A stretch of DNA of 64,000 bases, from positions 1,364,001 through 1,428,000 of the forward strand of contig NZ_CP059735.1 of NCBI RefSeq assembly GCF_000948975.2. Direction: 5' to 3'. The notes beneath the pieces were generated by a model. That model had not been told where the DNA came from and searched no databases. It saw only the letters and a list, made by a program, of their open reading frames with translations. Each line of letters starts with the position of its first letter. The first letter of the stretch is position 1. The stretch is from Thalassomonas actiniarum (GTDB taxonomy: Bacteria; Pseudomonadota; Gammaproteobacteria; Enterobacterales; Alteromonadaceae). Made by a program: the position numbers and the translations under genes. This document shows, in pieces, positions 2,492 through 40,742 of the stretch.

Positions 2492-4084
2492 CTATTCATT
2501 GCCACTGAGCTTTCTGGGCCAGCTGAAGAGCAATTTGGCGCCGCCGCTGCTGCTGTTGGCAACGCTGATTTGACCGGTATGCCAATGGGCGATTTGTTTT
2601 ACTATTGCCAGGCCTAAACCATAACCGCCCGATTGTCGGTCGCGGCTGGCGTCGAGCCGTTTAAAAGGCTCAAATACCGAGTTACGGTCTTTTTCCGGAA
2701 TACCTGGGCCGTTATCCGCTACCCAGATTTTTTGTTGCTGATCGCAAAAGTCATAGCCGATTTCTACCTTGTCGGTGGCATATTTAAGGGCATTGATGAT
2801 CAGGTTTTCTATTGCCCGGTGCAGGTATCGCCGGTCAGCAAAAAAGGTGTCGCAGCTGTTGGCCGGGTAGGTAATGGTGATAGCAGGGTTATTTATTTTC
2901 AGCTTATGGTTGAGCTGGCTGAAGAATTCGCCCACCGAAATCGCTTCCAGATCGAGTGCCGGCAGATCCTGTTTTAACTTTGAAAAGGTCAGCACTTCAT
3001 CGATCAGGCTTTCAAGCTCATCGAGATCTTTTTCAATCCCGGATGCCTGCTTGCTTAACACCGGATTTTGATCATCTTCGATTGCCGCGGTACGAAAACG
3101 AATGCGGGTGACCGGGCTCCTGAGTTCATGGGAGATGGCGCCGATCATTTCGGTTTGGGCATCGATAAGTTTATGTATGCGTTGCGCCATGGTATTGACC
3201 GTGTTGGATAATTTACCGATGGCATCTGAGCCCAAAGGGGCTGGCATAGATAAGTCTTTATCATGGCCGATAAGTTCTATCTGTTTATCTATACTGGCCA
3301 GGCGTTTTTCCAGCGGGCTGACCAGGAGGTAACTGGAGATGGCCATTAACACTAAAATAGCCAATACACCAGGTAGAATAAGGGATACCGGGAACCATTC
3401 GAAAAAAGGAATATCCCCCAGGACCAGTACATAAGGACTGTTACCCAAAGGAGCATAGGCCTGCAATGCCGGTACGCTGGTGGTGGAGTTTTTTAATACC
3501 ACGGAAATATCCCGCTTTTCTATGGTGCGGATATTGGTTGTGGGCAAGTGCAGCTTTTTTAAGGTTTTTAACTGAATAGGGTAGTTAAACATAGATCTGA
3601 TATTGTCCAGCGCCTGGAGTCTTTGTTCGTTTTTATGGCGCCCCAGCTCATTGAGTATAAGAAACGCGCTGGTGCGTACCAGGGAGCTGCCAAAATCTGC
3701 CAGCTTTACCTCTAAATAATGTTCTTTATCGGCGAGCTTGATCAGCACCTGTCCGCCGGATAACAGCGGATTGATATTAAAAACATATTTATCCCGTTGC
3801 AGTTGTTGATAGATGTTAGTGGTTAGTGTTTTGCTACTGATATTTTTTTGCTCAAATGTCAGATCACTGATTTTCTCGATTGCCGATAACCATAACCTTT
3901 GTTTTTCACCCTGATGACGGGCTGCACCTTCACTGATCAAGCGAAAAGTACCGCCATAATTTTCCTGCACATGGGTTGAAATCCGGTGCTTGCTGATGTA
4001 ATAACTGCAAACGGCAATTACCAGCATTATGGCTATCATGGCCAGGAACATTCCCATGTAAATTCTTACAAAAATACTGCGCAT
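2492..4084 (-). CDS. Membrane sensor histidine kinase (orphan)
   Basis: 530 residues. TM1 spans about 8-30, a periplasmic sensor region of about 200 residues follows, and TM2 spans about 231-256. After it come a HAMP-like linker (257-310), a HisKA dimerisation domain with H-box AISHELRSPVTR (phospho-acceptor His319), and a HATPase domain with N-box ENLIINALKYA (Asn431), G1 DNGPGIP and G2 GGYGLGLAIV. The layout resembles CpxA/RstB-type kinases. The motifs look intact, so the protein should autophosphorylate. No response regulator lies on either side within the window; the downstream genes encode a secreted acidic protein and an outer-membrane protein instead. The sensor region matches nothing I can name. 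Confidence 0.9.
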   Translation of the reverse strand: MRSIFVRIYMGMFLAMIAIMLVIAVCSYYISKHRISTHVQENYGGTFRLISEGAARHQGEKQRLWLSAIEKISDLTFEQKNISSKTLTTNIYQQLQRDKYVFNINPLLSGGQVLIKLADKEHYLEVKLADFGSSLVRTSAFLILNELGRHKNEQRLQALDNIRSMFNYPIQLKTLKKLHLPTTNIRTIEKRDISVVLKNSTTSVPALQAYAPLGNSPYVLVLGDIPFFEWFPVSLILPGVLAILVLMAISSYLLVSPLEKRLASIDKQIELIGHDKDLSMPAPLGSDAIGKLSNTVNTMAQRIHKLIDAQTEMIGAISHELRSPVTRIRFRTAAIEDDQNPVLSKQASGIEKDLDELESLIDEVLTFSKLKQDLPALDLEAISVGEFFSQLNHKLKINNPAITITYPANSCDTFFADRRYLHRAIENLIINALKYATDKVEIGYDFCDQQQKIWVADNGPGIPEKDRNSVFEPFKRLDASRDRQSGGYGLGLAIVKQIAHWHTGQISVANSSSGGAKLLFSWPRKLSGNE

Positions 4085-4603
4085 TAACTGCTCACCCGGT
4101 TGTGCTTGATGATTTTTATCTGCTTAAGTTTGCCGGGAAGTTAATAAGGTTAGTCAGTTTGCTAACAGGGACCGGTCAAAACTGAGATAGTGATAGTGTG
4201 CGGTTAGTAAACCGTATCGGCTTTGGGATTAGTAGCAAGCCATTGTAGGCTTTTGTATCGGTTTGTACGCCCGGATTGTACAAGGTGGCCTGTTGTCTGA
4301 TGTTCGCTGTCAGGCCATAGATTTTCCGGCCTCAGTGCCACTCTCCCCGTTTTGACAATCTCCGGACAACAAGCTTTAAAAAATGGTTTTACTCTTAAAA
4401 ATCATGTGCTTGCTGGTTTTGTATGCGCATGAGGGAGTTTTGGGCTTTGTGGATACATTTGGATACATTCCGCTAATTTTTGTCACTACAGCGGCGATGG
4501 TCTTGGGGCAATAATCAACTGGCGACATCGGCAATAGCTAGTTGAAATTTAATACAGCGGGTGTCGGTTAAGGAATACAACTAAAACTTCAGAGGTTAGA
4601 ACT
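4085..4603. other. Intergenic region between divergent kinase and protease genes
   Basis: No convincing ORF. It must hold the promoters of both genes. A TTGACA (4352-4357) with a weak TTTAAA 17 nt later is a possible rightward promoter, though it lies 250 nt from the protease start. The 10-mer TGGATACATT is repeated head-to-tail at 4450-4459 and 4460-4469, a possible regulator site. AGAGG at about 4590 can serve as part of the protease ribosome-binding site. Confidence 0.4.
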
Positions 4604-31173: not shown

Positions 31174-31644
31174 TTAGTTGGACTGCTTTGTTACCAGGAG
31201 CTCTATTTTATCTGCCAGGAGATCTATTTTTTTCTCAAGTTGCTGGTTATGTTCCAGTATCTCGGCATTTTGCTTGCGTAATTCCCGGTTTTTGACATTG
31301 GTATCGGAAAAGCCGACAAAGCGGTCGATAAATTGTGCACCGATAAAACCCACCATACCGACACCGATATAAAACATGGCACCGACCACGATTCTTCCCC
31401 CCAGGGTGACAGGGAAATGATCACCAAAACCTATGGTGCTGGCACTCATTTGCAAGGTCCAGAAGGCGTCTTTGTAGGTCATGATATTACTGTCTGGGGC
31501 TGAAACTTCAAACTGCAGCAGTAAAAACGACAACGCGGCAATGATGATATACAGGGCGACTAAGGTGATAATCAACAGATAACCCGAGTGATAATTTTTT
31601 ACACCGAATTCATCTACGCTATAGGGAGTAAGTTTTGTATTCAT
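31174..31644 (-). CDS. Two-TM potassium-channel-like protein
   Basis: 156 residues. TM1 about 22-45 (YLLIITLVALYIIIAALSFLLLQFEV), a pore loop with selectivity filter TIGFGDHFPVTLGG (about 71-84), TM2 about 85-107, then a coiled-coil tail (RKQNAEILEHNQQLEKKIDLLADKIELL). This is the minimal Ion_trans_2 channel plan; the filter TIGFGD fits K+ selectivity. No RCK domain. Last gene of the yjf-type unit, so channel activity is probably linked to the envelope-stress role of its PspA neighbour (inference). Confidence 0.85.
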   Translation of the reverse strand: MNTKLTPYSVDEFGVKNYHSGYLLIITLVALYIIIAALSFLLLQFEVSAPDSNIMTYKDAFWTLQMSASTIGFGDHFPVTLGGRIVVGAMFYIGVGMVGFIGAQFIDRFVGFSDTNVKNRELRKQNAEILEHNQQLEKKIDLLADKIELLVTKQSN

Positions 31645-31655
31645 GGTCCGCGTTC

Positions 31656-31982
31656 TTATTGACTTTTATTGGCGACATGATTGATGAGTTCATCCATCAG
31701 CTTTCTTTTTATTTCCAGCTGCTGTTGTGGCTCAAGCTGGTATTTTTCTGCCAGCACCTGGTAATCTTCCGGCCCGAGCGATACGGTTAATCTTGGTCTT
31801 TTCGGGCGTTTGTTGGTGGACAAGCCTAAAATGGAACGAATTTGATCCGAAGGACTCAGTCCGGCCTGCAGTGCTTCCGTCCTGATCGCCAGCTGAATTT
31901 TTTCATCCATATCAAAGGCAACCTGTACCGCCTTAACGGCTTTGACCGATGACTGCCATTTTTCGGGGACTTTTCTTGCCAC
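31656..31982 (-). CDS. Small protein with ribbon-helix-helix-like segments, possible regulator
   Basis: 108 residues. Two segments each read as a short beta strand followed by helices: VQVAFDMDEKIQLAIRTEALQAGLSPSDQIRSILG (about 21-55) and RLTVSLGPEDYQVLAEKYQLEPQQQLEIKRKLMDELI (about 64-100), with a basic linker (NKRPKRPR). This resembles ribbon-helix-helix DNA-binding folds, though I cannot confirm it. It sits 3 nt after yjfK and 11 nt before the channel gene. It is the only plausible DNA-binding protein in this block. Confidence 0.5.
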   Translation of the reverse strand: MARKVPEKWQSSVKAVKAVQVAFDMDEKIQLAIRTEALQAGLSPSDQIRSILGLSTNKRPKRPRLTVSLGPEDYQVLAEKYQLEPQQQLEIKRKLMDELINHVANKSQ

Positions 31983-31985
31983 AGT

Positions 31986-32642
31986 TTAACTCCCGGGGTA
32001 CATATCTATGATATCGGTGACAGGGCGATATAAGGTTAAGAACACATCGGTATCCCCGTCTGACCATACTTCAACTTCAATGCCAAAATCTTGTTCGGCA
32101 TCATGTAACACATATTGCTCGAATTGTTCGCCGCTGTCACTCCCCTGATAGGCACTGAGGTTTTCACTGCGGTGATCTTTACGGTGAAAATAGCCGACCA
32201 CGGCAAAGGCATTTTGCTGATATTGTTCGCTGGTCCAGCCGCTGGTTTTGGCGGTATCGCTTTGGCGTTCAAGAAACGCCTGGCCGGGTTCGTCGAAAAT
32301 GGCGGCAAAACTGTCGAGATCAAACAGGCTTTCTACATCCTGGTGTTCTATTTTCAGGGAAAATTTTAAATAGATCTTATCGTCAACATCAAGGGATAAA
32401 TAAATCTCATTGTCGTTATTGCCCGTCAGCACCCATTCGGTCTGGGTGTGGTGTTCAAATTCATAACTGTTGACGTCGCTGACCTGAAACTGCTGCTGCC
32501 TGAGGGACTCGGGTAAAGCGAAACTGTCGGTGAGAACAATAATATCGTCTTTTTTGAGATCCTTTACCGAAGTTAAACTGCGCTGTGGTGCTTGTTCTTT
32601 GCCAAAAACACGTTTGAAAAAACTCATTATTGTGTCCTGCAT
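31986..32642 (-). CDS. yjfK: DUF2491 protein (YjfK-like)
   Basis: 218 residues, soluble, acidic, no signal peptide. The pattern (FKRVFGKEQAPQRSLTSVKDLKKDDIIVLTDSFALPESLRQQQFQV... HHTQTEWVLTGNNDNEIYLSLD) fits the DUF2491 family, E. coli YjfK, usually next to yjfI and the PspA-like yjfJ. Function unknown. A 161-nt gap with two hairpins separates it from the PspA gene. Confidence 0.75.
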   Translation of the reverse strand: MQDTIMSFFKRVFGKEQAPQRSLTSVKDLKKDDIIVLTDSFALPESLRQQQFQVSDVNSYEFEHHTQTEWVLTGNNDNEIYLSLDVDDKIYLKFSLKIEHQDVESLFDLDSFAAIFDEPGQAFLERQSDTAKTSGWTSEQYQQNAFAVVGYFHRKDHRSENLSAYQGSDSGEQFEQYVLHDAEQDFGIEVEVWSDGDTDVFLTLYRPVTDIIDMYPGS

Positions 32643-32803: not shown

Positions 32804-33514
32804 TTAGCTTTTATTTTGTTTCGCTTTAATGCGATCCAATACCGAGTTGGCGCTATTGTCCGCAGCGCCGATGCCGGCTTCTTTTAGCTGGGCGGCCAAC
32901 GAGCTGTCGCTGTTTTCTGACTCAAGTACTTCGGCGGCTTTCATTTGATCATCAAACTTTTGCTGCTTCGCCTTGATGCGCTCCAACGAGTCTTTGGCAT
33001 TTAACAGCTTAGAGTTGCTCGAAGAAAAGTTATCCGTGATAGCCGATGTCGCTTTTTGCACGCTTTCTGTGGTTTTAACCATAGACAGCTGGCGTTTGTA
33101 TTCTGCCATCTGGCGTTCGCTTTTCTTCACCAGCTCTTTTAAGCGGCTGGCACTGGCATCAAAGCTGTCTAATGCCTGTTGCTGATTGGCCAGCTCAGAC
33201 TCTAACGTAGAGATCTTTTCCGCAACCGCCAGGGCAAGAGACTCATCGCCTTTTTCCAGGGCCTGTCCGGCATAACCTTCGTGTTCGGTGATCTCGCGCT
33301 TAAGGCGGTCAACTTCACGACTTGCTGCCATTTGCTGGGCCATGACGCCGGTTAAGTCACGTTTGGCTTTGGTCAGGTGATGCTCGGCATCGCGAATTTC
33401 CTGTTCAAAAATACGGGTGGAATTCGAATCGACGATAGCTTCACCAACTTCTGTCGCGCCACCTCGAATAGCTGTCATTATCTTTTTAAAAATACTCATA
33501 TTATCACTCCTCAA
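32804..33514 (-). CDS. yjfJ: PspA/IM30 (YjfJ-like) protein
   Basis: 236 residues, almost wholly helical: an N-terminal amphipathic segment (MSIFKKIMTAIRGGATEVGEAIVDSNSTRIFEQEIRDAEHHL) followed by long coiled coils (about 45-200), as in PspA/IM30/Vipp1. Five codons upstream of MSIFKK are present in the frame; the MSIF start (33499) is the usual one. Family members polymerise on the inner membrane face and limit proton leakage. It follows yjfI by 11 nt. No pspF or pspBC is present here. Confidence 0.88.
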   Translation of the reverse strand: MRSDNMSIFKKIMTAIRGGATEVGEAIVDSNSTRIFEQEIRDAEHHLTKAKRDLTGVMAQQMAASREVDRLKREITEHEGYAGQALEKGDESLALAVAEKISTLESELANQQQALDSFDASASRLKELVKKSERQMAEYKRQLSMVKTTESVQKATSAITDNFSSSNSKLLNAKDSLERIKAKQQKFDDQMKAAEVLESENSDSSLAAQLKEAGIGAADNSANSVLDRIKAKQNKS

Positions 33515-33525
33515 AGAATGGTCGC

Positions 33526-33939
33526 TTAAATTAAATATTCACTCATGTCATCGATAACTTCGATGGCATTGTTACTCAATACCGCCAGTTCGTGCTCAAT
33601 GTCTTCAAAGGTTGAATTAATTGACAAGGCACCGAAAGTTACGTATTTATCGCCGATTTTAGAAAAGGCGGATAACGGCATAGGGATGTTCATTTCCAGC
33701 ATGCTTTCATGCATGTCATGCAGGGCATCCGGTTTTACTTCTTCAACTCCCCATAGGTAGGTGATACATAATATTTGATCGTCGGTAACGGAAACAAAAA
33801 TCGGCAGTTCTTCACGGCCTGTTACTGTGATCTGTAAAACATCGACTTCACCGGATATCGGCTGACAGTCAAAAACCATACCTGTGTCTGAGTCATCAGC
33901 TAAGGTGTTCAGGTAGTCGGCTATTTTATGAATGTTCAT
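33526..33939 (-). CDS. yjfI: DUF2170 protein (YjfI-like)
   Basis: 137 residues, acidic, soluble. The pattern (IHKIADYLNTLADDSDTGMVFDCQPISGEVDVLQITVTGREELPIFVS.. and LSAFSKIGDKYVTFGALS) fits DUF2170, E. coli YjfI, a partner gene of the PspA-like yjfJ. First gene of its transcription unit: AAGGGATCC precedes the ATG, and two copies of a 13-bp palindrome lie 62-110 nt upstream. Confidence 0.8.
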   Translation of the reverse strand: MNIHKIADYLNTLADDSDTGMVFDCQPISGEVDVLQITVTGREELPIFVSVTDDQILCITYLWGVEEVKPDALHDMHESMLEMNIPMPLSAFSKIGDKYVTFGALSINSTFEDIEHELAVLSNNAIEVIDDMSEYLI

Positions 33940-34000
33940 TGGATCCCTTATTTGTTATCTGGTGCAAAAAGTTTGCGCTTTTTGCGGGTTTTTACTGATC

Positions 34001-34049
34001 GACATATTATGTCAATGAGCTTAAGTTAAACATTAAGACATAATATGTC
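34001..34049. promoter_or_regulatory. Two 13-bp palindromes upstream of yjfI, candidate operator pair
   Basis: GACATATTATGTC (34001-34013) and GACATAATATGTC (34037-34049), centres 36 bp apart. On the minus strand each is preceded by TT, forming TTGACA, so the operators overlap possible -35 boxes. A further hairpin (GCAAAAAG 33964-33971 / CTTTTTGC 33978-33985) lies in the leader. The same palindrome is at 37811. Confidence 0.75.
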
Positions 34050-34104
34050 AAGCGACTATGGATTATTTTTTCACTATTGCTTGTTATTGCTGTTGCGATA
34101 CGGC

Positions 34105-35853
34105 TTATTTCTGCAAATGGGCCTCGTTTAACCCCTGTTGGTCGCGCCAGGCATTCTGATGCAACTGGTACAAGGTATGGCTACCGAGATAGTTTACGTC
34201 AACTTGTTCACTTTCCAAGTAAAAATCTTTGGGAAAAACAAAGGCGCTTTTAATCATAGCAAGGCTTAACCAGTGGTGGGGCACGGTGAGCTGATCCTGC
34301 TGCTCCAGCCTGGCCAGGGGACTTGCCCCCATTTTAGCGGCTATGGTCCAGCCCCACTCGCCAAAGCTTGGAACATTGTCATGGTATTGCTGCACTTGGG
34401 GAAAGTGTGCCGCTGACAGGGTTTTGCCGATAGAAATAAAGGATTTTTTCGCATGATAAGGACTGGTTGACTGTATGCCGATAATACCGTCACCGGCGAG
34501 CAGTTGTTTTAACCTGGCATAAAAATTCACCGAATAGAGCTTGTTTAAATCCGGGTGGCTGGGGTCGGGCAAATCGACGATAATGGCATCATAAACCTTA
34601 CCCTGGGACAACAAGTTATCTATGGCGATAAAGGCATCGCTCTGGATGATTTCTACCCTGGGGTCTTGCAGGCTTAATTCATTTAAGTTAGCGACTTTTT
34701 GCGCCAAGGCTTTTGGCAAGTGTTGCTGCGGCTGTTTAAAGAGTTCGAGCAACTGACTGTCCAGGTCCAGCAGGGTGACATTTTCGGGGGACCATTTCAG
34801 GATATCGCGCAACGCCAAACCGTCACCGCCGCCGATGATCAGGATATTCTCCTGGCGGGCAGAAGCGGCCAATACCGGGGTCACCAGGTAGCCGTGATAA
34901 ATAAATTCATCTGACGAGGAAAATTGCAAACGGCCGTTGAGGTAAAAATTGATGATATCCCCCTGCTCCAGCCCCATATGGCGCTGGGTAAAGGTCAGCT
35001 GCTGGTAGCGGGTCTTTTCACTGTACACCACCTGATCAAGGTAAAGCAGGTTATTCATCTGGTTAAGCCAACTGTTTCCGTGCTGGTAAATTACCGCGAG
35101 CATCACCACTAAGGCCAGGTGCAAAGCCACCAGGGTTTTACGCCAATTGAGTTTTTGCCAGTAGCGCATAATAAAGCAGCCGCCGGCGAGCACGTTTAAG
35201 GCGGCGGTTAACGCAGCCGCTTCGCTGATATCTATCGACAGTAAAAAGATGACCCAGATGGCGGCGCCTATACCGGCACCGATATAGTCGGCGCCGTAGA
35301 TGGTACCGAGATTATTTTTCAGGTGTTTTTGATGAATCTCTTCCCGGATGCGGGCGATTAACGGGATTTCCATACCGATAAAAAAGCCAAGCAAGACGCC
35401 GAAAAAATAGGGGCTGTTAAAGGCGATAAAACTTAAGTCTTTAAAAAAGCCGCCTCGGGGCAGGGCGTCGGGGGGCAGGGCAAAGGTATCGCTGACCAGC
35501 TGCGGCAAAATCTGGGTGGCGCCGATAAAGGCGCTGATGATGATAATGGCGGAGCTGCCGAGCAGGGCGATAGTGATCTCAAGCCAGACAAAACCTTTAA
35601 AGGCGCAGGCAATTTTACGGGCGGCAAAAGCCCCCAGGCCCATAGAAACTATCATCAGGCCTATCATGGTATAGATGGCGCTTTCCATGATGCCGAGCAC
35701 CCGGCCGGCATAATGGGATAATAGATATTCGTAGATTAAGCCGCAGCCGGCGAGTACCGCCATGGTGAGGATCAGCAGCACATCATCGAGATAATGGCTG
35801 CCGGTTTTGCTGTGACTTGCTTGTGCTGAACTCAGGCTGTTTACTTCATTCAT
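34105..35853 (-). CDS. Membrane-anchored polyamine aminopropyltransferase
   Basis: 582 residues. The N-terminal half carries seven or more TM segments (about 24-265), a putative transporter-like or anchoring domain. The C-terminal half is a spermidine-synthase fold: LEQGDIINFYLNGRLQFSSSDEFIYHGYLVTP, ENILIIGGGDGLALRDILKW (S-adenosyl site), DLDSQLL, and IIVDLPDPSHPDLNKLYSVNFY (catalytic Asp region). It transfers aminopropyl from decarboxylated S-adenosylmethionine to a diamine. Such fusions occur beside DUF350 and PspA genes in other bacteria. No S-adenosylmethionine decarboxylase is visible in the window. Eight nt from the DUF350 gene. Confidence 0.88.
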   Translation of the reverse strand: MNEVNSLSSAQASHSKTGSHYLDDVLLILTMAVLAGCGLIYEYLLSHYAGRVLGIMESAIYTMIGLMIVSMGLGAFAARKIACAFKGFVWLEITIALLGSSAIIIISAFIGATQILPQLVSDTFALPPDALPRGGFFKDLSFIAFNSPYFFGVLLGFFIGMEIPLIARIREEIHQKHLKNNLGTIYGADYIGAGIGAAIWVIFLLSIDISEAAALTAALNVLAGGCFIMRYWQKLNWRKTLVALHLALVVMLAVIYQHGNSWLNQMNNLLYLDQVVYSEKTRYQQLTFTQRHMGLEQGDIINFYLNGRLQFSSSDEFIYHGYLVTPVLAASARQENILIIGGGDGLALRDILKWSPENVTLLDLDSQLLELFKQPQQHLPKALAQKVANLNELSLQDPRVEIIQSDAFIAIDNLLSQGKVYDAIIVDLPDPSHPDLNKLYSVNFYARLKQLLAGDGIIGIQSTSPYHAKKSFISIGKTLSAAHFPQVQQYHDNVPSFGEWGWTIAAKMGASPLARLEQQDQLTVPHHWLSLAMIKSAFVFPKDFYLESEQVDVNYLGSHTLYQLHQNAWRDQQGLNEAHLQK

Positions 35854-35861
35854 GCCTGCAG

Positions 35862-36764
35862 TTAGGCCATCAGGGCGGTCAGGATCAGGGCGATGGAAAT
35901 GCTGATCGCCATTTCTATGCTGGCGACACCGATATTATGCTGCTGGTCGACTTCTTCTACCAGGTTAATACCCCAGAGGATAATGCGTTTCGCTAGCGAG
36001 GTTAATATCGCCACCAATACCGTCATCACTAAGCCGAAAATTAACCAGCCCAATAAGTTAACCACTAAGGTTTCCGGGCTGTAGCTGAAGAAATAGCTCG
36101 CCGCGGTGACTGCCAGCGCCGTGCTGATCATTTGTCCGGCATAACGTATGGCAATGGCTAACTGCCCCTGGCTTAACGCTTCCTGCAGGCTGTCGTCCTG
36201 GTTGTTTTTGGCGTATTGGCGCTCTTTTAACCGGGTTACTATCACCAGGATGGCCTGGGAGACGATAAAGCCGCTGGTAATGGCGATAAAGGTGCTCAGA
36301 TCGAGGCCGTCTACCCATAATAATACCGCGCGGATAATGATGGCGGTGGCAATGGCGCCGGCGGCATCGACCACGCCGATACTGAGGTTTTTCTCCTTGA
36401 TCAGGGCATTTTTATCCAGCTGGTTCAGCGCCAGTTTGTCATGGAAGATGCGGCCGATTTTGATCAGGATTAAACCAAAAGTGCCGTATGCCAGCATACC
36501 TATGGCTTCAAAAAGATAGCTGGTGGCGGTTTCCCCGGTAATGGCGCCGGTTAAGACTATGCCCAAGGCAGCGACACTGCCGGCGACGCTGATGCCAAAG
36601 GCAAAGTTATCTTCTTTGGCCAGTTCTTCGGTGGTATTTACCTTGGCGGATAAGCCGGAAACAAAACGCATGGTACCGAGCAAGATAATGGCAATCAGGA
36701 GATCGATCGCCAGATAAGTCAGTAAATCCTGATTTAGCGCGGTGATTTCAATTAATGTATTCAT
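35862..36764 (-). CDS. DUF350 inner-membrane protein (YjfL-like, duplicated domain)
   Basis: 300 residues with about eight TM helices in two repeated halves (NFAFGISVAGSVAALGIVLTGAITGE at about 52-77 and HNIGVASIEMAISISIALILTALMA at the end, with matching segments between), as expected for two DUF350 units; E. coli YjfL has one. Function unknown; DUF350 genes are usually linked to PspA-like or polyamine genes. It lies between the lipoprotein and the aminopropyltransferase in one apparent transcript. Confidence 0.82.
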   Translation of the reverse strand: MNTLIEITALNQDLLTYLAIDLLIAIILLGTMRFVSGLSAKVNTTEELAKEDNFAFGISVAGSVAALGIVLTGAITGETATSYLFEAIGMLAYGTFGLILIKIGRIFHDKLALNQLDKNALIKEKNLSIGVVDAAGAIATAIIIRAVLLWVDGLDLSTFIAITSGFIVSQAILVIVTRLKERQYAKNNQDDSLQEALSQGQLAIAIRYAGQMISTALAVTAASYFFSYSPETLVVNLLGWLIFGLVMTVLVAILTSLAKRIILWGINLVEEVDQQHNIGVASIEMAISISIALILTALMA

Positions 36765-36786
36765 TATTATTCCTATTTTCTAATTG

Positions 36787-37764
36787 CTATTTACCGCGGG
36801 AAAAACCACGAGAAGTCTTACTGCTGCTGTTTCTGAAACTGGCATTTCTCGAACTGGCTGATTTTCTTGCGTAGCTGCTTTTACTGCTGCTTTGGGAGCG
36901 AAAGCGGTTGGCACTGGTTTGTGCGCTTTTGCTCTGGCTCGATAAACTGGAGGCGCCGGTGCGGTTTTTACCATAGGCGCTGGTAAATTTTTGTCCGCGC
37001 TTGGCAAAAGATTTCTTGGTGCGGGCATCGAGCCGGGTTTGTTTTTTCAGCTGGCTCGGGGAGCTGTAGCGGGTGCGGCCGTAGTCGTTATAATAACTGT
37101 AATTGCGGTGTCTGCCCCAGTCGCCGTAAGAGACGCGGCGGGAGCCGAAGATATCCCCTATCATGGAATACATGCCGTACCAGGCCCAAAAAGACATGCC
37201 GTTGCTGCCTGTGGTCCAGCTGCCGTAGTTAGGGTTGCCGATCAACTGCTCGCCGGTGCCGAAATCCTGGGCATTATTTGCCTGCTGGCTTTGGGCTTTC
37301 GACAATGCGTTGATCCGGGGCAACATGCCGTCAGACATGTCAGCCAGGACATTAAGCGGGTCGCTTAAGGCGTCGGAATAAAGCACGGGATCCGCGGCCT
37401 GGTAGATATTGAGCAATTCGTCATATATTGCCTGGTTATCGGCAAACATTTCCGGTTGGGTCTTTACCGTGTTCAGGCGGTCGACAAGGGCCAGATACAT
37501 AGGTCCCTGCGTGGTGGCGTCCTGTTTAAAGGCGTTTACCAGCTCAGTCAGTTCCGGTTTGCTTCGGGCGATTTTATCGCCGTACTGGCGGATAAGTTCG
37601 GCATTTCTTACCTGGCCGCTTTCCAGGGCATCGGCAAGTTGTTGCACCCTGAGTTCACTGACCGGCAGTTGCCTGGTAACTTGCTCTTTGATGGGGTCAC
37701 CACAGGCCGTCAGTAACAGGGTCAGGGCGAAAAAAATGAAGCGAAATTTATGCATTCCTGCCAT
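36787..37764 (-). CDS. Lipoprotein with Ser/Arg-rich tail
   Basis: 325 residues from the ATG at 37764, which has GAGGA at good distance; an ATG 14 codons upstream (37806) runs almost into a palindrome and would put the signal peptide too far in. Lipoprotein signal with lipobox LLTAC (HKFRFIFFALTLLLTACGDPIKEQ). The middle is helical, then an aromatic/Gly stretch (NPNYGSWTTGSNGMSFWAWYGMYSMIGD), and the last 100 residues are dominated by Ser, Arg and Lys (SSQSKSAQTSANRFRSQSSSKSSYARKS), a basic disordered tail that could bind polyanions. It heads the DUF350-aminopropyltransferase unit. No family recognised. Confidence 0.65.
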   Translation of the reverse strand: MAGMHKFRFIFFALTLLLTACGDPIKEQVTRQLPVSELRVQQLADALESGQVRNAELIRQYGDKIARSKPELTELVNAFKQDATTQGPMYLALVDRLNTVKTQPEMFADNQAIYDELLNIYQAADPVLYSDALSDPLNVLADMSDGMLPRINALSKAQSQQANNAQDFGTGEQLIGNPNYGSWTTGSNGMSFWAWYGMYSMIGDIFGSRRVSYGDWGRHRNYSYYNDYGRTRYSSPSQLKKQTRLDARTKKSFAKRGQKFTSAYGKNRTGASSLSSQSKSAQTSANRFRSQSSSKSSYARKSASSRNASFRNSSSKTSRGFSRGK

Positions 37765-37810
37765 GTTTTCCTCAAAAATGCTATGGTTATCGGTAATTAG
37801 TACCATTTAC

Positions 37811-37823
37811 GACATAATATGTC
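37811..37823. promoter_or_regulatory. Third copy of the 13-bp palindrome, between the lipoprotein gene and glnE
   Basis: GACATAATATGTC, identical to the copy at 34037, 47 nt upstream of the lipoprotein ATG and 58 nt upstream of glnE. It is best placed to control the lipoprotein unit. Confidence 0.7.
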
Positions 37824-37880
37824 CACTGTTTAATCGCTATCACCCTAATTTACCAATAATTAATATTAACCGGAGTTCAG

Positions 37881-40742
37881 GTGACCACGAGAATTTTACC
37901 TTCGCTTTCGTCAGATTTACAGCAATTACAGGAAAAATACTGGCAAACTTGTCGTGAGCAGCTGCAGCAACTGGATTTGCTGACAAAGCAGCAACAGGAA
38001 GATTTTAAACTTGCTGTTACTTTAAGTGATTTTATTCAAAGAAGTTTTTTGCAGGCCCCTGAGCTGGTCACGACGCTTTTTACCAGTGGCAGCATTTATG
38101 ATGAGCAGACGCCGGATTATCCTGCTTTGATTGCCGCCAGGTTAAGTGGTTGCGACAGCGAAGAGAGTTTACATCGTTTGTTAAGGCAGATTCGCCTGCA
38201 GCAAATGGTGAAAATTGCCTTTGCCGATCTGGTATTGGACCTTCCGCTTGAATTGTCATTGAAACGTTTATCTGCCCTGGCCGATGCCCTGATATTAGGT
38301 GCCCTTAACTGGCTAACCGACTTTTGCCAAAGCAAATGGGGCACGCCGAAAAATCGCCGGGGACAGGATCTGCCTTTACTGGTTTTTGGCATGGGCAAGC
38401 TTGGCGGAGAGGAGCTGAATTTTTCTTCCGATATTGATTTGATTTTCGCTTATCCCGAGTCGGGACAAACCGCAGGTTCGGGCCGCAGTATCGACAATCA
38501 GCAGTTTTTTACCCGGCTCGGGCAGAAGCTGATCACTGCCTTGCATCAGCAAACTGCCGACGGTTTTGTCTACCGGGTAGATATGCGCCTGAGGCCATTT
38601 GGCGAAAGCGGACCGCTGGTGATGACTTTTGACGCCATGGAGCATTATTACCAGGAGCAGGGGCGGGACTGGGAGCGCTATGCCATGCTTAAAGCCCGTT
38701 TGATCGGCAGCAGCGATTATCATGACGCCCTGACGGAGTTATTACGGCCTTTTGTCTATCGCAGATATATAGACTTCAGCGTCTTTGACAGCCTGCGGCG
38801 CATGAAAATGATGATAGTGCAGGAAGTACGGCGCAAGAACCTGGTAAACAATATCAAACTTGGCGCCGGCGGTATCCGGGAAATTGAATTTATCGTCCAG
38901 GTTTTTCAGTTGATCCGCGGCGGCAGGGAAAAGGAGTTGCAGCAGCGCCGCTTGCTGGTGGTTTTACCCGAGCTTGTTAAAGCGGGGGTATTGAAAGCCG
39001 TCAGCAAAAAGGTGCTCGAAGATGCCTATTTGTTTTTACGGCGCCTGGAGAATATTATTCAGGCGTTAGACGACAAGCAGACCCAAACCTTACCGGATAC
39101 TTTGCTTGACCAGCAAAGGGTATTAACTGTGCTTAAGCTCGGTAGCTGGCAGCAATTACTGGATACTTTGCAGCGCCATATGGAAGCCGTGCATCTGGAG
39201 TTTAACGACCTGATAGGTAAGGAAACGCCTAATCATCAAACCATAGACGAGCATTGGGTGACTTTGTGGCACAGCCAATGGGAGGATGATGAAGCCATTG
39301 CCTGGATAAACCAGCTGGTGCCCGACTGGCCGGCAGAAAAGGTATGGCAGACTTTGGCGCATTTTCGCCGGGATGTTTCCCGCCGCTCTTTGGGCAACCG
39401 CGGTCGCCAGGTGCTGGATAAGCTGGTGCCGTTATTATTGTGTCACCTGGAACGTCAGCACTGTGAAGATTATACCTTGGCCAGGGTGCTGCAGGTGTTT
39501 GAAAAAATCATGACCCGCACCGCCTACCTGGAATTACTCTATGAAAATGAAGGCGCCTTTAAGCACCTGATCCGCTTGTGTACCGCCAGTTTATGGGTGA
39601 CGGAATATATTGCCAAATACCCGCTGTTGCTCGATGAATTGATCGATCCCGAGTCTTTGCATAATCCCTTGCCGCTATCGGATTACGCCCTTGAGCTTAG
39701 GGAGGTGATGCTGCGTATTCCCGAAGACGATCTCGAAGCCCAGATGGAAATGTTGCGCCAGTTTAAACAGGCGCAGCAATTACGCATTGCCGCCGCCGAT
39801 ATTGTCGGCATTTTGCCGGTGACTAAGGTCAGCGATCATTTAACGGCACTGGCAGAAGCGATTATCGGTGAAGTGATCAACCTCGCCTGGCAGCAGGTGT
39901 CTGTGCGTTTTGGTGTGCCTGAGTCCAGCCTTGCCAGCGGTGAAAAAGGTTTTGCGGTGATAGGTTATGGCAAGGCCGGTGGTATCGAACTTGGCTATGG
40001 CTCAGATCTGGACCTGGTGTTTATCCACGACAGCAAGGCGGATGAGCAAACCACAGGGCCACGTCAGGTACCGGCCAATCAGTTTTATATGAAACTTGCC
40101 CAGCGCATTATGCATATTTTTAATTCCAGGATGAGCAGCGGCATTTTATATGAATTGGATATGCGCTTGCGTCCGTCGGGGAATTCCGGGGTCTTGGTGG
40201 TGCATATCGATACCTTTGAGCATTACCTTAAAAACGATGCCTGGATCTGGGAGCACCAGGCGCTGGTACGCTCCCGTGCGGTATACGGCCATGCCGGGAT
40301 CCGCCGTAAGTTTGACGATATTAAACGCCAGGTATTGGCGGTCACCCGCTCGGATAAGCAGTTATCCGGTGAAGTGATCAGTATGCGTAATAAGATGCGC
40401 AATCATCTGGATAAGTCTAGCGCGGATAAAGCCGATATTAAGCAGGCGCCCGGCGGCCTGGTGGATATCGAGTTTTTGGCGCAGTATCTGGTGCTGCTCT
40501 TTAGCCATGATTACCCGCAAATTGTCGATTATTCGGATAATATCCGGATTTTCGAGCAATTGCATAAGGCGGGGATTTTGGATCAAAGCCAGTCGCAATT
40601 GCTAATTAAAACCTATTGCCGGTTAAGGGATTTAGGTCACAGGGCTGTACTGCAAAACGAAGCTCAGCTGATCGGCAGGCAAGAATTTGATATTTATGCG
40701 CCGGACATTGTTAAGCTCTGGCAGCGTTTTCTGGTCGAATAA
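37881..40742 (+). CDS. glnE: Bifunctional glutamine synthetase adenylyltransferase / adenylyl-removing enzyme
   Basis: 953 residues, GTG start with CCGGAG upstream. Two nucleotidyltransferase domains with the GlnE signatures: VFGMGKLGGEELNFSSDIDLIFAYPESG (about 168-195, adenylyl-removing) and VIGYGKAGGIELGYGSDLDLVFIHDS (about 694-719, adenylylating), each with helical bundle domains; PGGLVDIEFLAQYLV is the conserved C-terminal motif. It adjusts glutamine synthetase activity in response to PII. In E. coli it lies between ygiF and hldE; here lpxL and others intervene. Confidence 0.97.
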   Translation: MTTRILPSLSSDLQQLQEKYWQTCREQLQQLDLLTKQQQEDFKLAVTLSDFIQRSFLQAPELVTTLFTSGSIYDEQTPDYPALIAARLSGCDSEESLHRLLRQIRLQQMVKIAFADLVLDLPLELSLKRLSALADALILGALNWLTDFCQSKWGTPKNRRGQDLPLLVFGMGKLGGEELNFSSDIDLIFAYPESGQTAGSGRSIDNQQFFTRLGQKLITALHQQTADGFVYRVDMRLRPFGESGPLVMTFDAMEHYYQEQGRDWERYAMLKARLIGSSDYHDALTELLRPFVYRRYIDFSVFDSLRRMKMMIVQEVRRKNLVNNIKLGAGGIREIEFIVQVFQLIRGGREKELQQRRLLVVLPELVKAGVLKAVSKKVLEDAYLFLRRLENIIQALDDKQTQTLPDTLLDQQRVLTVLKLGSWQQLLDTLQRHMEAVHLEFNDLIGKETPNHQTIDEHWVTLWHSQWEDDEAIAWINQLVPDWPAEKVWQTLAHFRRDVSRRSLGNRGRQVLDKLVPLLLCHLERQHCEDYTLARVLQVFEKIMTRTAYLELLYENEGAFKHLIRLCTASLWVTEYIAKYPLLLDELIDPESLHNPLPLSDYALELREVMLRIPEDDLEAQMEMLRQFKQAQQLRIAAADIVGILPVTKVSDHLTALAEAIIGEVINLAWQQVSVRFGVPESSLASGEKGFAVIGYGKAGGIELGYGSDLDLVFIHDSKADEQTTGPRQVPANQFYMKLAQRIMHIFNSRMSSGILYELDMRLRPSGNSGVLVVHIDTFEHYLKNDAWIWEHQALVRSRAVYGHAGIRRKFDDIKRQVLAVTRSDKQLSGEVISMRNKMRNHLDKSSADKADIKQAPGGLVDIEFLAQYLVLLFSHDYPQIVDYSDNIRIFEQLHKAGILDQSQSQLLIKTYCRLRDLGHRAVLQNEAQLIGRQEFDIYAPDIVKLWQRFLVE

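Follow-up and report, generated by a model that had tools for sequence, protein, structure and literature searches.

A 13-bp palindrome as putative operator of a predicted tandem ribbon-helix-helix repressor in Thalassomonas actiniarum and related Gammaproteobacteria

A 13-bp palindrome marks the promoters of two adjacent minus-strand gene units of Thalassomonas actiniarum, one opening with a yjfI-like gene, the other running from a predicted lipoprotein gene through a DUF350 gene to a polyamine aminopropyltransferase gene. The units lie in a stretch of 64,000 nucleotides (contig NZ_CP059735.1, positions 1,364,001 to 1,428,000), here called the window, whose numbering is used throughout. We propose that the palindrome is very probably the operator of a predicted tandem ribbon-helix-helix (RHH) protein encoded within the yjfI unit, at 31656–31982 on the minus strand, which would act as an autoregulating repressor and, in trans, control a membrane-protection regulon. 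The sites, their placement, their conservation and their co-occurrence with the RHH gene are computational observations, which are laid out below.

Perfect copies of the palindrome

The copies GACATATTATGTC (34001–34013) and GACATAATATGTC (34037–34049 and 37811–37823) were found exact in a sequence check, all three being palindromic about a central W, just as the original prediction had described them. The two yjfI sites are located 98 and 62 bp from the yjfI start (33939), respectively for the outer and the inner copy, and the third site 47 bp from the ATG at 37764 that we have chosen as the start of the lipoprotein gene by its ribosome-binding site and lipobox (the longest open reading frame, ORF, starts at 37806); with that choice, the earlier range of 47–98 nt upstream of the first starts is reproduced. 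The reported overlap of both yjfI sites with TTGACA is likewise correct: on the minus strand, TT precedes either site, while the 37811 site gives TGGACA.

When up to three mismatches are allowed, the window contains 14 copies against a mean of 12.8 in shuffled sequences, which is chance level, so only perfect copies carry weight. Three such copies occur in the window where 0.001 are expected under a first-order Markov model, and seven in the whole genome (7.49 Mb in two contigs) where the same type of model, with base composition taken from the window, predicts 0.13 (P ~1e-10). As a control, the pattern read backwards has no exact copy in the T. actiniarum genome and six in 147 genomes of the family (a sample drawn from a larger group), versus 375 real copies.

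The four perfect copies outside the block are found upstream of nhaA, of an operon of a small ORF, pspA and a pspC-like gene, of nfeD (268 bp from its start; two SPFH genes follow, as identified with Pfam) and of an alpha-type carbonic anhydrase gene. In addition, four copies have one mismatch: one of these (GACATTTTATGTC) precedes a beta-type carbonic anhydrase gene and another a BI-1-family gene, and no convincing target was recognised for the remaining two. The original prediction, which saw in the palindrome the operator of one local regulon, had named as contrary evidence a motif that is frequent and random elsewhere in the genome or missing at orthologous promoters; we found seven copies at promoters, and conservation in relatives. 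The palindrome thus behaves like an operator (rare, promoter-located, lying over -35 boxes, conserved at orthologous promoters and common to both units), but the word "local" has to be dropped, four of the seven perfect copies being elsewhere. The original prediction, which knew no named regulator for the motif, had also overlooked the candidate encoded in the yjfI unit.

Promoter architecture

The geometry was studied in yjfI loci of relatives, namely the best 80 of 344 found, which are by their titles from Colwellia, Thalassotalea, Thalassomonas and near relatives, with one labelled Endozoicomonas. All of the 80 loci fetched carry two strict (perfect) sites spaced by 35–39 bp. The consensus of the 53 loci in which this spacing is 36 bp is CTTGACATAaTATGTCAag.TGcTAAATTtAaCccagacGACATAaTATGTC, where the -35 box is within the first site, an extended -10 follows after 16 bp, and the second site covers about +4 to +16. 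Over these 53 loci, the sites themselves have a mean information content of 1.94 and 1.92 bits, as against 1.21 for the spacer and 0.4 for the flanks. The window has the same layout at 34051–34001 (sites O1 and O2; Table 1).

TTGACA lies over the palindrome at 83 of 162 single or upstream sites, while AA is present on the mirror side in 27; amongst the downstream members of site pairs, it occurs at 3 of 35. From this asymmetry, the T's next to the palindrome are part of the -35 box directed at the gene and not of the protein's palindrome. The 37811 operator overlaps the -35-like TGGACA, with TACTAA (37802–37797) 17 bp downstream. In loci that had been fetched for holding sites, a start codon follows within 300 bp for 197 of 221 distinct sites of the general form GACATWWWATGTC; for lone half-sites in these loci, the figure is 354 of 1211.

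Co-occurrence with the RHH gene

Genomes were searched for the RHH gene with a profile built from 11 relatives of the window protein. Strict sites are present in 70 of the 147 family genomes, with up to 13 copies each (several in most positive genera, none or one in others). All 65 family genomes that have the RHH gene carry a strict site, and so do five of the 82 that have not; moreover, 369 of the 375 sites are in genomes with the RHH gene, and no RHH-less genome of the family has at least three. The YjfI protein (DUF2170) was considered as the determinant of the sites and rejected: it is encoded in 113 family genomes, and sites occur in all 65 of these that also have the RHH gene but in only three of the 48 that lack it.

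Over 345 genomes of the order, a strict site was detected in 80 of 104 genomes with the RHH gene and in 17 of 241 without. Of the 24 RHH genomes in which no strict site was found, 22 belong to a single family (f11), and its yjfI promoter carries a variant pair, with GACATTWAATGTC as the downstream and GACATATAATGNC as the upstream member, in 11 of the 12 loci fetched (the twelfth was cut at a wrong start). In four of six f11 genomes scanned, the yjfI variant is the sole GACATWWWATGTC match, and the other two have one more. The two genomes that remain are G436 and G380, where a GACATTTTATGTC pair and a one-mismatch site were seen. Taken together, the operator is upstream of the RHH gene's own operon in all 80 named loci and, as the variant, in 11 of the 12 f11 loci; genome G168, in which the RHH gene stands apart, is the exception.

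Two genomes in which gene and neighbourhood have come apart are informative. In G168, no site is near the RHH gene, and other contigs carry a pair 36 bp apart before pspA as well as single sites, one of them near nhaA. G012 has kept a divergent asnC-nhaA pair and lacks the RHH gene as well as YjfI; its asnC-nhaA region has no site even with up to two arm mismatches. Both cases argue that the sites follow the RHH protein and not mere linkage.

A forward test outside the order

A scan of 369 genomes of the class yielded 11 further RHH genes outside the order, for which a site upstream of their operons was predicted beforehand. Exact copies of GACATAWTATGTC were found in the operon promoter region at six of these 11 loci, where 4e-6 to 4e-4 are expected per locus. 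Five of the six have two copies, or one plus a copy with one base changed, at a spacing of 15–18 bp; L420 has two exact copies plus GACATAACATGTC. Two of the six genomes have a GC content of 64 and 68%. Near-matches occur at three other loci, L428 having a one-mismatch site and L424 and L426 having pairs with one altered arm. At L421, L423, L198 and L207, ORF calling failed, the regions being GC-rich or overlapping, and yjfI was recognised there by eye in the reading frames.

Family and predicted fold of the candidate regulator

The protein encoded at 31656–31982 is basic and 108 residues long. It has no Pfam match up to an E-value of 10 and no NCBIfam match up to 0.1, and searches of PDB sequences with the protein and with its profile returned nothing convincing. 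Two AlphaFold2 models, made with 11 and 27 relatives, predict the succession strand-helix-helix twice (strand 19–21, helices 27–40 and 44–51/52; strand 67–69, helices 71–80 and 88–106/107). In one Foldseek search, the first three ranks went to AvtR, an F relaxosome chain and a permuted single-chain Arc, at E-values of 1.2–1.5 and with helix-turn-helix proteins intermixed; the F relaxosome chains matched are taken to be TraY. Across 27 diverse members, no variation is seen at W9, A18, Q20, F23, S45, R49, L54, R64, L65, L69, L77 and I91. Membership of the RHH superfamily is likely; Ravi et al. (2024; PMC11237479) name an RHH transcription factor that in some cases closes operons of this type.

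Genes that carry the sites in relatives

Neighbouring genes were recorded in 11 genomes of which all strict sites were fetched. The yjfI unit is beside a site in nine of them by script and in the other two (G151 and G270, where the ORF start was over-called) by eye; the lipoprotein/DUF350/aminopropyltransferase unit is so in eight. Other recurrent neighbours are nhaA (6/11), nfeD-SPFH (5/11 at a distance of at most 260 bp, and farther away in G000 and G041), pspA with or without the small ORF (5/11), htpX (4/11), a YqiJ-like gene together with a flotillin-type gene (4/11) and the alpha carbonic anhydrase gene (2/11). About two dozen other genes neighbour a site in only one or two of the 11 genomes, and some of these are not obviously membrane-related. 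The flotillin-type protein, which has no Pfam match at 1e-5, was named by its band-7/coiled-coil appearance and after passages of Ravi et al. With sites before pspA, nfeD-SPFH and flotillin-type operons, pspA and flotillin/SPFH genes come under one motif. In another family (f25), ORF calls place htpX behind a strict copy at two of seven loci, and the five others have flanks that look alike.

The content of the putative regulon (PspA, SPFH/NfeD, HtpX, NhaA, carbonic anhydrases and an ion channel) suggests that the signal is membrane integrity or ion balance, as it is for sigma-W.

Some observations on individual loci may be added. In L206 (genome G161), a site lies 47 bp upstream of the gene (3229–4089) of a 270-residue protein that by eye resembles voltage-gated channels, a further link to ion balance. 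An Lrp/AsnC-type gene that is divergent from nhaA is 85–100% identical in loci L012, L055, L063, L087 and L094 (genomes G000, G007, G003, G041 and G025), which represent four genera. Site pairs spaced by 31 bp occur at another target in G384, G400, G427, G025 and G048; the pair of G384 is about 1.2 kb upstream of an RHH gene. Genome G460 has two RHH matches.

Proposed mode of regulation

Binding by the RHH protein, repression, the stress signal and the route of release are what we infer from the arrangement of sites and genes. The operator would be GACATAWTATGTC or, in general form, GACATWWWATGTC. At O1, the RHH protein would cover the -35 box of a strong sigma-70 promoter and at O2 it would sit just downstream of the transcription start, the two sites probably acting together; repression is proposed because the sites lie over the -35 box and near the transcription start. 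In trans, the protein would hold down both units of the block, the second pspA operon, nfeD-SPFH, nhaA and the carbonic anhydrase genes and, in relatives, also htpX and the flotillin-type operons. When the membrane is damaged or ion balance is lost, the repressor would leave its sites, perhaps via the YjfI and PspA products of its own unit or via a ligand tied to the aminopropyltransferase. YjfI is a possible partner of the repressor because its Pseudomonas aeruginosa homologue, bacA, lowers its own operon, although the promoter there is of the sigma-54 type.

A number of observations weigh against this proposal. At the level of the genomes, sites occur where no RHH gene was detected, mostly singly, in the five family and 17 order genomes mentioned above, and amongst RHH-less genomes G251 has four strict sites and G420 and G225 have two; the assembly of G251 is 88% complete, so that its RHH gene may be missing from it. 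Conversely, 10 of the 65 RHH genomes of the family carry only one or two sites. The genomes share ancestry, so Fisher values overstate the independence of the co-occurrence. Outside the order, the altered-arm sites of L424 and L426 read CCCATAATATGTC and CCCATATTATGTC (found by eye), and L422 and L425 (two of the 11 distant loci), where the RHH gene is without preceding yjf genes, have no site. As for the protein, the 11 relatives give few and weak matches of RHH type amongst unrelated ones in Pfam and NCBIfam (RHH_1 in two members, 0.027 at best; NikA-like, FitA-like and RelB/DinJ). The two models are of middling confidence, their mean predicted local distance difference test (pLDDT) scores being 69.0 and 67.9 and the region of the first strand scoring less than 50; no Foldseek match reaches an E-value of 0.001 for either model, and a profile comparison of one half of the protein against the other (hhalign) gave no significant internal repeat. 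Finally, a consensus promoter scan of the window flagged none of the promoters discussed here, and averaging over all sites yields a weak -10 signal.

Alternative explanations

The same protein might bind the same sites as an activator, or as a repressor at some and an activator at others, the way a review reports for AvtR, a tandem RHH protein that does both. We consider this improbable for the sites described here: their overlap with the -35 box, and the second site just past the inferred transcription start, indicate exclusion of RNA polymerase.

A slightly smaller chance, and still a low one, is given to another, unlinked regulator that binds the palindrome and has been kept and lost together with the RHH gene. 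The survey covered regulators near the sites only, which leaves room for such a protein; on the other hand, the one unit that retains operators in f11, a family without the remainder of the regulon, is the unit that holds the RHH gene, and in other families the site is predicted by distant RHH genes.

The Lrp/AsnC-type protein encoded divergently from nhaA was the first candidate for the regulator of the palindrome. Regulators of the Lrp/AsnC family would be compatible with a 13-bp palindrome centred on W; the gene is conserved beside nhaA in four genera with the site in the common intergenic region, and close orthologues are present in 51 of the 147 family genomes, 50 of which have sites. We have rejected it, and consider it very improbable, since sites and gene come apart in both directions. 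Thirteen family genomes with at least two sites are without an orthologue, including G035 with eight sites, and a laxer search of eight of these 13 gave only distant paralogues in seven and nothing in one. Vice versa, G012 has the orthologue beside nhaA and no strict site. In the T. actiniarum genome itself, the Lrp/AsnC gene is downstream of nhaA, away from the site.

That the palindromes are chance repeats near promoters, or arms of terminators, with no regulator at all can practically be dismissed in view of the copy number, the phylogenetic profile, the footprint and the forward test, although a few background copies in RHH-less genomes fit it, e.g., a terminator-like hairpin in L023 and a copy within a reading frame in L152.

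Relation to known systems

The RHH repressor proposed here would regulate an operon already described as one of the phage-shock protein (PSP) operon types of Ravi et al. (2024; PMC11237479), where passages list DUF2170, PspA, DUF350, the aminopropyltransferase and a final RHH gene; these passages state no operator, regulon or RHH target. No description of the regulon was found in the open-licence literature searched, regulon databases not being included.

In content, the regulon is like that of sigma-W in Bacillus subtilis, described in PMC8581546 as uniting the pspA operon with flotillins and as induced by alkaline shock, salt and phage. Sigma-W control is exerted by an extracytoplasmic function (ECF) sigma factor, whereas here a palindromic operator over a sigma-70-like -35 box is paired with a candidate RHH repressor. 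AvtR and F TraY are described as having two RHH units in one chain, and AvtR is autoregulatory, with several binding sites; the former is a viral regulator and the latter a conjugation protein, with no sequence relation to the window protein at the level tested and with fold matches that are not significant.

PspA-family genes under dedicated stress control are common to the regulon and to the PspF/sigma-54 phage-shock response of enterobacteria (passages of PMC10948618). The same source describes the sigma-54 bac operon of Pseudomonas, in which bacA is the yjfI homologue and its loss raises the other Bac proteins (PMC10948618). The PspF and bac promoters are of the sigma-54 type, whereas the yjfI footprint here is TTGACA, 16 bp and TGcTAAATT (no scan for -24/-12 elements was made). 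In E. coli, htpX and a BI-1/YccA-type gene are targets of Cpx, whose DNA motif differs. The likeness to Cpx lies in the palindrome sites that htpX carries in relatives; no response regulator was linked to the palindrome. PSP-type membrane defence under an RHH repressor would be an addition to the known modes of PSP control.

A wider view, which we hold with rather more doubt than confidence, is that a single-chain tandem RHH repressor, in place of a sigma factor, of a sigma-54 activator or of a two-component system, runs a membrane-stress response in several families of Gammaproteobacteria. It would have begun as autoregulation of a yjfI-pspA unit (with ion channel and aminopropyltransferase), and in some lineages its reach would have grown in trans to include pspA, SPFH/NfeD, htpX, nhaA and carbonic anhydrase genes, f11 keeping little beyond the autoregulatory pair; with release via YjfI/PspA, the DNA would directly report that PspA has engaged a damaged membrane. 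PspA, flotillin/NfeD and HtpX systems guard the membranes of very many bacteria, and we knew of nothing that connects these systems in marine Gammaproteobacteria. If true, the proposal would give DUF350, DUF2170 and the membrane aminopropyltransferase a first functional context, and would illustrate how an autoregulatory site of local reach may expand to a regulon across the genome, or contract again to the promoter of its own unit. With an operator of defined sequence (13 bp) and a single small protein as candidate regulator, the proposal is testable.

Features of the gene block

The elements and genes of the two units are compiled in Table 1.

Table 1. Putative regulatory elements and genes of the yjfI and aminopropyltransferase units in the window
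Feature	Position	Strand	Basis
O1, the upstream of the two yjfI operators	34037..34049	-	Sequence; pair in 80/80 loci; near-invariant columns in 53 loci
Perfect -35 box, TTGACA	34051-34046	-	O1 plus 34050-34051
Extended -10 (TG-T-TTAACT) in the promoter of yjfI, 16 bp past TTGACA	34024..34032	-	Inferred; matches the TGcTAAATT block of 53 loci
O2, the downstream of the two yjfI operators, at a spacing of 36 bp from O1 and at about +4 to +16 of the inferred transcription start	34001..34013	-	Sequence; conserved spacing of 35-39 bp
Operator of the lipoprotein/DUF350/aminopropyltransferase unit	37811..37823	-	Sequence; site here in 8/11 genomes with all strict sites fetched
Candidate regulator, 108-aa predicted tandem RHH protein, fourth gene of the yjfI unit	31656..31982	-	Co-occurrence; forward test; fold models; RHH gene reported in this operon type
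yjfI-like gene, DUF2170	33526..33939	-	Pfam PF09938, 2.5e-38
PspA/IM30-family gene (YjfJ-like)	32804..33499	-	Pfam PF04012, 6e-40
yjfK-like gene	31986..32642	-	Operon position; no Pfam match at 0.001
Ion channel with TIGFGD filter, directly downstream of the RHH gene	31174..31644	-	Pfam PF07885, 4.8e-8
Predicted lipoprotein, first gene of the second unit	36787..37764	-	ORF and lipobox; no Pfam match
DUF350 membrane protein	35862..36764	-	Pfam PF03994, 4.7e-35
Membrane-embedded polyamine aminopropyltransferase	34105..35853	-	NCBIfam NF002956, 605 bits vs cut-off 472

The operator of the second unit is within a divergent region (37811–37881) shared with glnE, which starts at 37881 on the plus strand; the same arrangement in 8 of the 11 genomes means that glnE might be affected too. 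In the yjfI leader, an A/T-rich hairpin (TGCAAAAAGTTTGCGCTTTTTGCG, 33963–33986) is listed by a scan as terminator-like on the plus strand. An ion-channel gene follows the RHH gene (Pfam) in the window and in L062, L097, L420, L427 and L422 (6135–7001); in L422, the pair is present without preceding yjf genes, and so the RHH and ion-channel genes may form a unit of their own.

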